Assembly (NCBI RefSeq): GCF_002277955.1
Contig: NZ_CP018477.1
Coordinates: forward strand, 186,001-250,000
Length of the DNA: 64,000 nt
Source: Thermogutta terrifontis
GTDB taxonomy: Bacteria; Planctomycetota; Planctomycetia; Pirellulales; Thermoguttaceae
Direction: 5' to 3'
This document shows, in pieces, positions 12,897 through 17,379 of the stretch; within the stretch, counting starts at the first letter, position 1, and each line of letters opens with the position of its first letter. The notes under the pieces are model-generated. The model was given only the letters and a program-made list of their open reading frames with translations. It did no database searches and was not told the origin of the DNA. The position numbers were made by a program, and so were the translations under genes.

Positions 12897-14363
12897 TTAC
12901 ACGGATGAGTCGTTATTCGAGAGTGTGTCAAGGGAGAAAATAGTCAGTCTTTCCGTAAACGGTTGCGGCTTGCGCGCAGCAGGAGCAAATTTGGAGTCAA
13001 CATACACGAGACGTGCACCTTTTGGTGCTGCCAGGGTCCAGGCAATACTCATAATCTTTTTTCCCGGCGTAACATCGATGACCAACGAGCGTGGATCATC
13101 GCCCTGGAGTAATTCGTCCACGAGGCTGCGAAATCGGGGAACCAGCTCCTCCAGATCTCCATCCGGAAATGCTTCGACGCGAGGTTGGGATGAGCCAAGT
13201 TGTTCTTGAACTTCAGGGGATTTCAGCCATTCTTCAACTTCGGCTGCCAGTTTTGGATAGCTTTCATTTCTTCGATTGCTTTGACTTTCCTGAGTATAAA
13301 GAATCAAAGATTTTCTAGGGCGAAATACAAAGTGCATGAGATAGATCAATTCCGGGCTGTCGCTCACAATTGTGATAAAATAGCGGCACTGTAATTTTTC
13401 CGGCTCTTTGCTGAATTGATTCCGAAGTTCGTTTGCCAAATCTTCTAAAATGCAATCGAGGTAATATTTCCGACGCTCGTGATCGGAGCTAATGTCCAGG
13501 TATGTTGCCGCGCGCTCTTCCGGAGGATCAGATCTACTCGCCGGCACGCGAAGCTGCAATTTGTAGGGGCGGAGTGCCTCGTGGGGACGAGGCGTGGACC
13601 TTTCGAATGTCTTGATTTCTATGGGCCAATTATTTTCGCGGACCCATTGACGGGCTTCCTCGAAGCATGAAGCAGGAACAAAGAATTGTGTTGCATGGAA
13701 TTCGTTGGCCACGGCCAATTTCTCTTTGATCCCTTCCACGCGAGTCACGCCCGCTTGGCGATCCCAGGCGCCAGTGGCCCAAACTTTGTGGTCGGGCTTG
13801 CCTTTGTTTGCGGCCAGTATGAGGGCCCCTGCCAGCGGTGCCCAGGCGGAAGAATAGTCACCCTTGAGGAAAGGGAGGCCAGGATCGAAGAGGTTGTCGC
13901 TGGCCGGATGGAGTTCCCATTGGTCGGATTCCGCAATTGCCCGAGAAGCCTTCAGCTCGCGGACCACCTCGTCGGCAACTTCTTGCAGACCTTCGGGAAG
14001 AATGGGCGGTTTTTCTGAAAGTCCTTCTTGCCACCTGAGAGGCAGGACTATCGAATCGCGCAGCGCGGGATAGCATGTATCTTTTCGAACCGCCACAACC
14101 CAACACGCTCCCGGGCCATCGGGCAAGTAAGGCTTTCGATACTGGGAGATCTCCTCGGTTGGCCACCCGTAGGCCGCTAGTTCCAAACGCGCTTTCTCCA
14201 AGACTTCGGGTTTAAGAAGCCAGCTCGCCAACGGGCCAAGTTCTCTTGCGAGTTTAAGCGCTTCAGGATTAGTGAGCTCTTCCGGACTTTTTTGGGCCAA
14301 CCGTTCGATTCTCTCAGCGACCACTTGCGAGGGACTCATGGTCACGTGCTTTCGACCTGTCAT
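12897..14363 (-). CDS. Lon-like serine protease fused to a CARF-like nucleotide-sensor domain
   Basis: A 488-residue protein in three parts. An N-terminal helical segment occupies about residues 1-80. A Lon-type (S16) proteolytic domain follows at about 85-235. In it, DYSSAWAPLAGALILAA supplies the Ser (S171 or S172), and the strand VWATGAWDRQAGVTRVEGIKEKL supplies the Lys (K213 or K215 in GIKEK); FFVPA is the usual following strand. From about 285 is a Rossmann-like CARF-type domain: RYFITIVSDSPEL is the first strand and VIDVTPGKKIMSIAWTLAA (about 428-446) matches the conserved D-x-T-x-G-x-K ligand loop, ending GARLVYVDSKF. There is no ATPase domain, so this is not a housekeeping Lon. It is the last gene of a four-gene operon, 19 bases after the 365-aa gene. 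By analogy with CalpL (a SAVED-Lon protease), I infer cyclic-oligoadenylate-triggered proteolysis. Domain calls are by eye. Confidence 0.82.
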   Translation of the reverse strand: MTGRKHVTMSPSQVVAERIERLAQKSPEELTNPEALKLARELGPLASWLLKPEVLEKARLELAAYGWPTEEISQYRKPYLPDGPGACWVVAVRKDTCYPALRDSIVLPLRWQEGLSEKPPILPEGLQEVADEVVRELKASRAIAESDQWELHPASDNLFDPGLPFLKGDYSSAWAPLAGALILAANKGKPDHKVWATGAWDRQAGVTRVEGIKEKLAVANEFHATQFFVPASCFEEARQWVRENNWPIEIKTFERSTPRPHEALRPYKLQLRVPASRSDPPEERAATYLDISSDHERRKYYLDCILEDLANELRNQFSKEPEKLQCRYFITIVSDSPELIYLMHFVFRPRKSLILYTQESQSNRRNESYPKLAAEVEEWLKSPEVQEQLGSSQPRVEAFPDGDLEELVPRFRSLVDELLQGDDPRSLVIDVTPGKKIMSIAWTLAAPKGARLVYVDSKFAPAARKPQPFTERLTIFSLDTLSNNDSSV

Positions 14364-14382
14364 ACAGCCTCTGTGATATGGC

Positions 14383-15480
14383 TCATCGGGTATCCGGCTC
14401 TTCCTCCTCCCAAGGGATGCCGTTGATTTGGAGTGGAACCGTTCCGGGAGAATGAGCCTTTACGAATTCATAGACGTCATCCACCTTGTAAGGCATCTCC
14501 GCGTTCGGGGTGAGTTGACTTTGGACCCCAGCAAATTCGACTGCAGCCCCCGCCAATTCGGTGGCAGGCTGGTTGTCCTGAGTGCGGAAAACCCGCAATT
14601 TCAATTCTTGACCTCGTTTGTGGCAAGAAGGCCACAAAGTCGCCGCGTAGTATTGGCGATCAGGCGACCGCCAACTCAACATGGCCAAGGGTTCGACCAA
14701 GTTGGAAGTTTCCGCGGCGACGCTCAGGACCCGAGTGGCAAGAATGATTTCCGCCGTTCGCCGGGCCGCTTGTTCCCTTGCCGCCGCTGCCCCAGCACGC
14801 CGGGGAGGAAGTCTGGAAAGCCATGCACTCTTTTGTTCAAATCGTTTTTGCAATTCTTCGTCGATCTCCTCCAGCGTGCCATCAAGCCAGTACGGGGCGA
14901 ATGAACGGTAGGGTTCCACAAGCAACTGCCGCCAGTTATTGAGAAGCTCCGTTCCCACGAGCGTGGAAAGGAGTTCCAGAATCTCCCTTTGCTGCATTTG
15001 GCGGTCCACAACTTCTATTTTTTCAGCCAATCCCTGGAGTTTGTCGTGCAAGGTTTCCCATAAAGGATCGGCGTCAATAAAGGCCTCGCAAGCGGCCTCC
15101 CCGAGGGCGGCCATGGCCACCCAGAGGTCCATGCGTTGCTCAAGAAGATCGGCGCAGAGGGCGTCTTCCTCGCCAACGGGGGCATCGTCCCACCGTTGGG
15201 GAAGAGTTTCGACGGCCTCCGCCAGCTCCGCAACCCTGTCTTCTAATGCCTCGATCGCCGCGATGGCCTCAAGTGCGGGTAAAGTCCCGTCATCCTCACC
15301 CGCATCGAGCCCGAACACTCTACAGTATCCCAGGGCCACGGCCACATTGGCGGCCGCTTGTTTCGCCTCGGGACTGGGCGTCCCCGTTTGAAACTCATTT
15401 AAGGCGGGATCAGCCAAGGCTTCCCTTAGCTGATCGACATATCCGTATAAATCTTCCCTTAACGAACGAAAAGTCGTCAT
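14383..15480 (-). CDS. Helical protein of unknown function in the sigma/CARF-Lon operon
   Basis: 365 residues, not recognised. Residues 1-235 are strongly helical and acidic, with many Leu/Ala/Glu stretches (for example LEDRVAELAEAVETL and KIEVVDRQMQQREILELLSTL), suggesting coiled-coil bundles. An Ala/Arg-rich helix follows (RRAGAAAAREQAARRTAEI). The last 110 residues look like a small beta-sandwich (AMLSWRSPDRQYYAATLW, LKLRVFRTQDNQPATELAGAAVEFAG), reminiscent of C-terminal domains next to anti-sigma regions in planctomycetes. There is no membrane helix, so it is cytoplasmic. The start has an AGGA site nine bases upstream. Its position directly before the protease makes it a candidate protease substrate or anti-sigma factor; this is inference from context only. 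Confidence 0.75.
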   Translation of the reverse strand: MTTFRSLREDLYGYVDQLREALADPALNEFQTGTPSPEAKQAAANVAVALGYCRVFGLDAGEDDGTLPALEAIAAIEALEDRVAELAEAVETLPQRWDDAPVGEEDALCADLLEQRMDLWVAMAALGEAACEAFIDADPLWETLHDKLQGLAEKIEVVDRQMQQREILELLSTLVGTELLNNWRQLLVEPYRSFAPYWLDGTLEEIDEELQKRFEQKSAWLSRLPPRRAGAAAAREQAARRTAEIILATRVLSVAAETSNLVEPLAMLSWRSPDRQYYAATLWPSCHKRGQELKLRVFRTQDNQPATELAGAAVEFAGVQSQLTPNAEMPYKVDDVYEFVKAHSPGTVPLQINGIPWEEEEPDTR

Positions 15481-15521
15481 GGCGGCATTCCTGATAATCC
15501 CATGATTCTGGAACTGAGAAG

Positions 15522-16292
15522 CTAATGCAGGCGTACGCTATCAGCATCGGCACTTTCTTCCCACCGTCGCCGGGGTTTCAGCCACCGTGGGCGGGACCTG
15601 GAGTGTCTTGAGCCTTGAGCCTCTTCGGCGGCAGGCCAGGACGGCAATCGACCCCGCCACGGACAGCCCTTCAGTTCCGGTTCAAATCCCCAGTTCTCCG
15701 GCGTGATAAACTGCAAATTTTTTGCCCGCCCGGTAACTTTCCCCTCTGAGTTTCGGAGGACCACGTCTTCTTGAGGCGATGGCATAAACCATTGCGGTGG
15801 TTCACCCTTGAGAGGGACATACCGGCGGATAATCTGTCGGACGGCGGCTTTCCACCGGTGCCTTCTGTTTTTTTCTACGGCTGCCGCATGGAGATAATAA
15901 CAGGTCACCCATCGCAGGGATGGGCCTGTTCCCCTCAGAATAGCAACAGCCCCGCTTGGAAGGACAAGGTGCCAGGTCATCCAACTGGCGGACTTATGCC
16001 GAGAGCGGTAGACCAGAGCTTGCGGCCGACTCAAGGCCTCGCGCGTTTGTTCACGGAGGACGCCCAGCACGCGCGAAACCACGGCCTGACCGTCCGCCGA
16101 TTGAATCTCCAAGTTCTGCTTCAGGTGTGCCACAGTGTCCGACCCGAACTCCTCTTTCCACGGTTCAGTGCGGCTTGTCCAGTGTTTCTGGCAGTGATAC
16201 CACGCTCCCTCTGAGAACACCACATCGAGCCGGCAATGCTGTTGCTGCGGCCGGGGATCGGGCAAGTCCGGCCAACGTTGCAATACGTTCAT
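15522..16292 (-). CDS. Basic protein of unknown function between sigma factor and helical protein
   Basis: 256 residues, not recognised with confidence. The middle (about 85-150) reads REALSRPQALVYRSRHKSASWMTWHLVLPSG followed by strands AVAILRG and LRWVTCYYLHA, then a basic helix RHRWKAAVRQIIRRYVP. This alternation of helix and two to three beta strands with conserved-looking Arg, His and Lys resembles small RelE/barnase-type RNase folds, but I cannot prove it. The C-terminal tail is Arg/Ser/Trp-rich and probably disordered. It follows the sigma gene by 42 bases. In the characterised CalpL system the sigma-binding target is a MazF-like toxin homologue; this protein could occupy that slot (inference). 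Confidence 0.7.
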   Translation of the reverse strand: MNVLQRWPDLPDPRPQQQHCRLDVVFSEGAWYHCQKHWTSRTEPWKEEFGSDTVAHLKQNLEIQSADGQAVVSRVLGVLREQTREALSRPQALVYRSRHKSASWMTWHLVLPSGAVAILRGTGPSLRWVTCYYLHAAAVEKNRRHRWKAAVRQIIRRYVPLKGEPPQWFMPSPQEDVVLRNSEGKVTGRAKNLQFITPENWGFEPELKGCPWRGRLPSWPAAEEAQGSRHSRSRPRWLKPRRRWEESADADSVRLH

Positions 16293-16334
16293 CGCTTTCC
16301 CTTGTCCTCAAGCGACATGTTAGTTTCGGTATTA

Positions 16335-17099
16335 TTACGGCGAGCGGAACGAATCGAACCAGCGAAGTGAACGAATCTTGTTTTCCATTCGTTCGTAGTG
16401 CATTCTCACGCTCTGAGAGCTAACGTTGAGGCAATCCGCAAGGAAGTGGATGCGATCGTTCGGTGTCTGGCAATCCTCAATCCCGGGAGGAGGAAAGGGT
16501 TGAGGTAAACCATCGATCTTATTGACCCACGCTTGCCAGGTCTCCTTCGGCACACGGTCCCAGAGGCCTGCGACCGCAAGACCGAAGACCCTTCTTTTGA
16601 CCGGGATTTTTTCAAGCTCCTGTAGATCCTCCTCACCGAAATCGCGATCGAGGTCCATTCGCCACTGTGCCTGCGTCGCGGGGTCTGAGAGGTGATGGTC
16701 CTCGATTGGACATTCAGCCATGCCCTCGTTTGGCCGAGATTCGGCGTCAAAAACCTCAGAAATTGTCCTTTCCCGGCGTCGTCTACGTCCCTTCTTGCGG
16801 TGTTCATCAATCAACCAACGATCCAACACCTGGTAGCACCATGCGCGGAAATTGCCTCGCACTGGGTCGAAGGAGTTGAATCGCGTGTAAACTGCTGTAG
16901 GCGCTTCGTCCGCTAATTCAGAAAGCTCTTGAGGACTCAGTGCATACTTGGCCGCAATATCATACACAAGTTTACGAATAGCGGAGTCCAGTTTTCGCCA
17001 TGCCTCTTCTCTCTCCTCCGGCGTGCCGTCTTTCGCCAGCCGTGCCCATTGATTGATCTCATTCTCTTCGTGAGGGATCCCTTGTTTCCCCGCACTCAT
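16335..17099 (-). CDS. ECF-like RNA polymerase sigma factor (first gene of the CARF-Lon operon)
   Basis: A 254-residue sigma-70-family protein. Region 2 spans about residues 33-108, with the core-binding and -10-recognition stretch FDPVRGNFRAWCYQVLDRWLIDEHRKKGRRRR; region 4 is at about 160-245 with helix-turn-helix LADCLNVSSQSVRMHYERMENKIRSL. No region 1.1 or 3 is seen, as in ECF or ECF-like factors. The frame is open 52 codons further upstream, but the ATG at 17099 has a strong GGGGAG site seven bases away and gives a normal N-terminus. It heads the operon, so it probably transcribes its own cluster or a defence regulon when released. There is no membrane anti-sigma gene beside it, which points to a cytoplasmic control partner. 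Confidence 0.88.
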   Translation of the reverse strand: MSAGKQGIPHEENEINQWARLAKDGTPEEREEAWRKLDSAIRKLVYDIAAKYALSPQELSELADEAPTAVYTRFNSFDPVRGNFRAWCYQVLDRWLIDEHRKKGRRRRRERTISEVFDAESRPNEGMAECPIEDHHLSDPATQAQWRMDLDRDFGEEDLQELEKIPVKRRVFGLAVAGLWDRVPKETWQAWVNKIDGLPQPFPPPGIEDCQTPNDRIHFLADCLNVSSQSVRMHYERMENKIRSLRWFDSFRSP

Positions 17100-17379
17100 T
17101 CGATTTCTCCCCGGGTTTGCGGTGACCATCCAGAAACTCTCACTATTTTGGTCGTCAGCCAGACCTCCGGCAACTGCCGGCAAGTCCACGATCAGAAATG
17201 AGAAAATCCCTTTGGCCCTCGACAAACCAATGTGATAAAATGCATTCGCAAGCAAAGAGAAGACGAGCGGAGCAAGCCATTCCAGGTGGACAAAGCGTTT
17301 CCGTCAGGGAAGTCTGTGCCGCTGGGTGAGAAAGGTAGATCATTGCTCAGCAGTGGCAGGTTTTGGAGCAATATCAACC

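Follow-up and report, generated by a model that had tools for sequence, protein, structure and literature searches.

A conserved protease–sigma factor operon linked to type III CRISPR in Thermogutta terrifontis and other Planctomycetota

The DNA analysed here (the window) is a stretch of 64,000 nucleotides, positions 186,001-250,000 of the forward strand of contig NZ_CP018477.1, from the thermophilic planctomycete Thermogutta terrifontis (GCF_002277955.1), whose genome of 4.81 Mb is contained on a single contig. At positions 12897-17099 of the window, an operon of four minus-strand genes encodes, in this order, an extracytoplasmic function (ECF)-like sigma factor of 254 amino acids (16335..17099, with an alternative upstream TTG start at 17255), BAS, a protein of 256 amino acids (15522..16292), HEL, a protein of 365 amino acids (14383..15480), and a CARF-Lon protease of 488 amino acids (12897..14363); BAS and HEL are provisional labels coined in the present analysis. 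The operon had been singled out in an earlier reading made from the letters alone (the sequence-only reading), and the coordinates of its four open reading frames (ORFs) and the gaps of 42, 41 and 19 bases between them are borne out by the ORF positions. The absence of a CRISPR array from the window, also remarked on in that reading, agrees with a CRISPR scan, the search for cas genes not having extended to each gene in the rest of the window. A sigma-70 promoter scan within the window performed no better than chance.

The protease is a full-length member of the CARF_m2--CARF_LON effectors of PADLOC, the model of which (PDLC01981) covers residues 15-477 with an E-value of 3.9e-152. A profile built from ten homologues of the protease (profile A2) and searched against PDB sequences matched Lon proteases at profile positions 177-267 (E 2e-6) and the CARF domain of Csm6 at positions 307-468 (E 4e-7), with weaker matches to Card1/Can2 in the CARF region. 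The Lon-type Ser-Lys domain extends over residues ~95-270 (13554..14081, minus strand) and the CARF sensor domain, which is also matched by PADLOC CARF models, over residues ~305-480 (12924..13451, minus strand). Ser172 (codon 13848-13850) and Lys215 (codon 13719-13721) are separated by 43 residues and invariant in 22/22 aligned homologues, and the CARF motif DxTxG (DVTPGKK, residues 430-436, in the window protein) is kept in most of these. In the sequence-only reading, a Lon domain combined with a CARF rather than a SAVED sensor had been proposed, with a missing CARF-fold match at the C-terminus and the loss of the Ser or Lys in homologues named as points of refutation; the PADLOC match and the independent Csm6 and Lon matches uphold this architecture, neither residue is lost in any of the homologues, and of the dyads offered there S172/K215 stands, while the alternatives S171 and K213 are set aside by the invariance. 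SAVED was tried as the sensor and ruled out, as CARF families match and no CalpL/SAVED chain is among the PDB matches of profile A2. Pfam, to which that reading had looked for hits to Lon_C and CARF, gave no match to the 488-residue protein, and the domains were recognised through PADLOC and profile A2 instead. No relatives of the protease were found among plasmids, phages and viruses.

The sigma factor matches Sigma70_r2 of Pfam with 35.4 bits (cut-off 24; E 9e-9), showing that region 2 is present, and TIGR02937 with 43.8 bits (NCBI cut-off 42.9), and hence its assignment as ECF-like holds. The family profile matches SigW, SigE and RpoE among known sigma factors. Region 4 gave no Pfam match in the window protein and a weak one in the homologue at locus L031, and is clear only in the distant homologue at locus L015 (E 1.7e-9). 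For HEL and BAS, no known family was found among Pfam, PADLOC, NCBI models and PHROGs, and their profiles had no meaningful match among PDB sequences, including the chains of the Craspase system. DUF717 was rejected as a family for HEL, the match being below the cut-off. The AlphaFold2 model of HEL (mean predicted local distance difference test score, pLDDT, 81.7) consists of a helical bundle (residues 7-222) and a beta domain (residues 265-362), and between these two well-modelled domains lies a predicted disordered linker (residues 223-264; 14689..14814, minus strand) with blocks of pLDDT 28-52. A fold search with HEL returned only generic helical-bundle matches and barely covered the beta domain. 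That domain can be recognised in HEL genes at distant loci, among them L012, L013, L014 and L015. In the L015 counterpart the beta domain is retained (E 2e-5), and the N-terminus contains HRESCHSC, fitting Hx3Cx2C, the pattern of zinc anti-sigma factors. The AlphaFold2 model of BAS has a confident core and no evident layout of two domains plus linker. Its 21 best structural neighbours are RelE/ParE/YafQ/BrnT/HigB-type toxins or relatives, with a best Z of only 4.2, and as these neighbours are interrelated they constitute one weak signal and not twenty-one. Across loci, the second gene is of at least two sequence types, between which the profile link is not significant, although their motifs look alike. 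Most homologues of either form conserve a His-x(3,4)-His motif, which is lost in L050.

The operon is a real, conserved module. Among genomes sampled across the Planctomycetota, CARF-Lon is present in 5/392, and within the family in 17/101. The order sigma factor, second gene, HEL, CARF-Lon recurs in about 19 planctomycete loci, with the window-type second gene in the window, L014, L026, L028, L029, L030, L031, L036, L050, L064, L065, L067 and L076, and with the other type in L012, L013, L025, L027, L048 and L066; some members were assigned by position and appearance without a significant match to a profile hidden Markov model (HMM), for example the sigma factor in L012, L013, L048 and L066 and HEL in L076, and the contig stops within the locus in L026 and L036. 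This survey bears out the co-location of all four genes, a check raised beforehand in the sequence-only reading, and the association was reached independently from three queries, CARF-Lon, HEL and BAS. Nearly all homologous loci contain HEL, and essentially all complete ones contain the sigma factor. A phylum-wide search with the HEL profile A7 missed known members and is therefore uninformative on absence. The distance matrices of the four proteins are correlated (r 0.92-0.98, Mantel p 0.0004-0.014), a parallel divergence as expected for a jointly inherited unit. Two further loci, L062 (cut by a contig end) and L063, contain sigma factor, BAS and HEL genes without an adjoining CARF-Lon gene, which lies on another contig (genomes G418 and G442), so that protease and sigma-BAS-HEL module can apparently separate. 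At L071:4539-7077 sigma factor and HEL genes stand together, and no Lon gene was detected alongside.

The module is also linked to type III CRISPR, several of the loci in relatives being embedded in type III cas regions. The operon lies beside Cmr4 and Cmr6 in L012 and beside Cmr1, Cas6 and a CRISPR array in L014, a III-D Cas10 and a CRISPR array are found alongside in L015, and Cas10 adjoins the operon in L025 and L067. Cas6 directly follows CARF-Lon in L029 and L032, and Cas6-like genes, judged by appearance, are nearby in L028, L030 and L076. In L031 a second CARF gene (CARF7--CARF_DUF2103) adjoins, Cas10 being undetected in that genome. As the sequence-only reading had anticipated, CARF-Lon co-occurs with Cas10, which is found in 13/17 family genomes with CARF-Lon and 13/84 without it (Fisher p 1.7e-6, n=101); counted by genus, the figures are 8/9 and 6/31 (p 3e-4), with ancestry only partly corrected for in both comparisons. 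The search for a type III cas10 with a cyclase motif suggested there found two Cas10 proteins in the genome of T. terrifontis itself, both with GGDD, one of type III-B, 57 kb from the operon and starting 9.7 kb beyond the edge of the window, and one of type III-D beside CRISPR arrays. The III-D cas7 (L007:1939-5350; G000:C1 ~4,746,900-4,750,400) is split into two pieces, each matching one half of the same profile, and ORFs resembling transposases, IS630-type by appearance, lie between them; hence this effector may be interrupted. Near the III-B locus, L005:877-2334 encodes a CARF-PDDEXK (Can2-like) nuclease, from which it appears that a second cyclic-oligoadenylate effector probably coexists.

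In another family of the same order, the sensor appears to have been exchanged. The locus L069:2387-10013 has the same order of sigma factor, BAS and HEL, followed by a protein of 1672 amino acids, the N-terminal part of which can be aligned to the Lon domain (HMM E 1.7e-6) and shows the same Ser-Lys spacing of 43. After the Lon domain this protein contains a P-loop NTPase region with Walker A and DGLDE motifs, resembling NACHT NTPases (PF13401 E 1e-4 and PF24883 E 2e-4, both below the Pfam cut-offs), and a long C-terminal region; no CARF domain is apparent. No Cas10 was found with PDLC00919 in this genome (99% complete), and the sensor is apparently independent of CRISPR. Like the signal transduction ATPases with numerous domains (STAND; NACHT-type) that act as immune sensors, such as Avs, the L069 protein has a NACHT-like NTPase and a long C-terminal region, but in L069 the effector is Lon, coupled to a sigma factor operon, in a single example whose Pfam matches are below cut-off; no second NACHT-Lon copy was found among the two genomes of that family searched. 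Judged by the alignment in this single case, it is the Lon domain, rather than CARF, that seems to go with the sigma-BAS-HEL module. At L070:5112-7869 a HEL gene near which no Lon was detected is followed by a gene for a protein of 477 amino acids with LNGLGELS-type repeats, which may be another kind of sensor arrangement. An open frame of 894 amino acids at L040:6782-9463 has an N-terminal Lon domain like that of CARF-Lon and a C-terminal half that does not align with CARF, and is a possible further sensor variant.

The release of ECF sigma factors through proteolysis of their anti-sigma factors has established precedents, and two other protease-sigma systems are linked to CRISPR. In the Calp system of a Sulfurihydrogenibium type III CRISPR locus, CalpL cuts CalpT after binding cyclic tetra-adenylate, whereupon CalpS is freed (PMC11417357). 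The present operon has in common with it a Lon protease with a cyclic-oligoadenylate-type sensor, an ECF sigma factor, a presumed inhibitor and a putative toxin-fold partner. However, its sensor is CARF instead of SAVED, it contains two extra proteins where Calp has one, its partner is weakly RelE-like (Z <= 4.2) whereas CalpT is MazF-like, and a counterpart of HEL was not detected in Calp by sequence. In the type III-E Craspase/CASP system (Csx29, Csx30, Csx31 and CASP-sigma), Csx29 cuts Csx30, an inhibitor of CASP-sigma (PMC10028731). Here, a protease, an ECF sigma factor and two accessory proteins are shared, one accessory protein of Craspase being a multi-domain anti-sigma factor cut by the protease. 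In contrast, the Craspase protease is of the CHAT type and gated by gRAMP (Cas7-11), whereas the present one is a Lon protease predicted to be gated by CARF, and the Cas10 loci of T. terrifontis are III-B and III-D, gRAMP not having been searched for genome-wide. As the operon has neither the SAVED sensor of Calp nor the CHAT protease of Craspase, it is classed under neither; it most likely works like both.

We hypothesize that the operon acts as a transcription switch that is gated by a protease and linked to type III CRISPR, a reading that we regard as reasonably probable. In the resting state, the sigma factor would be bound by HEL, either on its own or jointly with BAS. Detection of foreign RNA by a type III complex would prompt Cas10 to make cyclic oligoadenylate, which would bind the CARF domain and activate the Ser172/Lys215 Lon domain. 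The activated protease would cut HEL in the linker between the helical and beta domains, and the freed sigma factor would turn on a defence regulon; BAS may be freed as well and is a possible second effector. Three features of HEL favour it over BAS for the predicted part of anti-sigma factor and substrate: the conservation of its beta domain across loci, its build of two domains and a probably disordered linker, and the anti-sigma-like motif of its L015 counterpart. Several findings weigh against this proposal. The zinc-type motif was seen in one protein, in which it has no Pfam match, and the helical part of HEL does not match known anti-sigma folds. The solo CARF-Lon loci L032 and L034 indicate that the neighbouring genes are not always adjacent. 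No shared promoter motif or dyad upstream of the operons rose above shuffles.

The sequence-only reading had put forward two candidate substrates; two middle proteins are indeed present, but their candidacy is probably not equal, as HEL is near-universal and has the linker, while the second gene is of at least two types, with a weak RelE-like fold. BAS is nonetheless a serious alternative substrate, since CalpT likewise has a toxin-like fold, its large fragment resembling the toxin MazF (PMC9704534). BAS could thus be the anti-sigma factor that is cut, with HEL as a scaffold or adaptor bringing the protease to a sigma-BAS complex, which would fit the position of BAS directly after the sigma factor, with overlapping frames in several loci, and its divergence in step with the sigma factor (r 0.97). 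We consider this arrangement rather unlikely, given that the two forms of the second gene cannot be aligned by profile whereas the beta domain of HEL is kept, that a two-domain linker layout is not evident in BAS, and that the zinc anti-sigma-like motif sits in the HEL counterpart of L015. The RelE/BECR-like fold and the conserved His motif would also suit an abortive-infection switch, in which BAS is an RNase toxin held inactive by HEL and freed by CARF-Lon, the main task of the sigma factor being to control how the operon is expressed; the loss of the motif in L050, the weakness of the fold match and the presence of a sigma factor diverging in step with BAS in essentially all complete loci make this improbable. 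Of still lower probability, by a little, is a ligand from a source other than type III CRISPR, for instance a cyclase of the cyclic-oligonucleotide-based antiphage signalling system (CBASS) or a stress nucleotide, which would make the operon a general stress sigma system. In its favour, and likewise against the type III-linked switch, Cas10 was undetected by either model in 4/17 CARF-Lon genomes, one of which (G429) is 97% complete, and the T. terrifontis operon lies outside any cas operon and is not adjacent to cas genes; the CARF domain, however, is closest to that of Csm6.

The CARF-Lon family itself is not new, being represented in PADLOC, which has no models for the other three genes, and predicted in a 2022 review in which host killing was speculated and sigma factors were not mentioned (PMC9704534). 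For the four-gene operon and the sensor swap, no description was found in the literature searched, which included neither the CARF classification of 2020 nor the CalpL paper of 2023, and the four-gene operon is likely to be novel. If the proposal is correct, Calp and Craspase would be joined by a third protease-sigma system linked to CRISPR, distinct from both in sensor and substrate, which would suggest that sigma factor release by proteolysis recurs among the outputs of type III immunity. The uncharacterised CARF-Lon effectors would gain a specific, testable substrate in place of the speculated host-killing role, and biochemistry should be convenient owing to the thermophilic origin and moderate size of the proteins. 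Through the NACHT-Lon example, a single output module would be connected both to CRISPR signalling and to sensing of the STAND type, and such a sensor-swapped relative could make the protease-sigma module more general.

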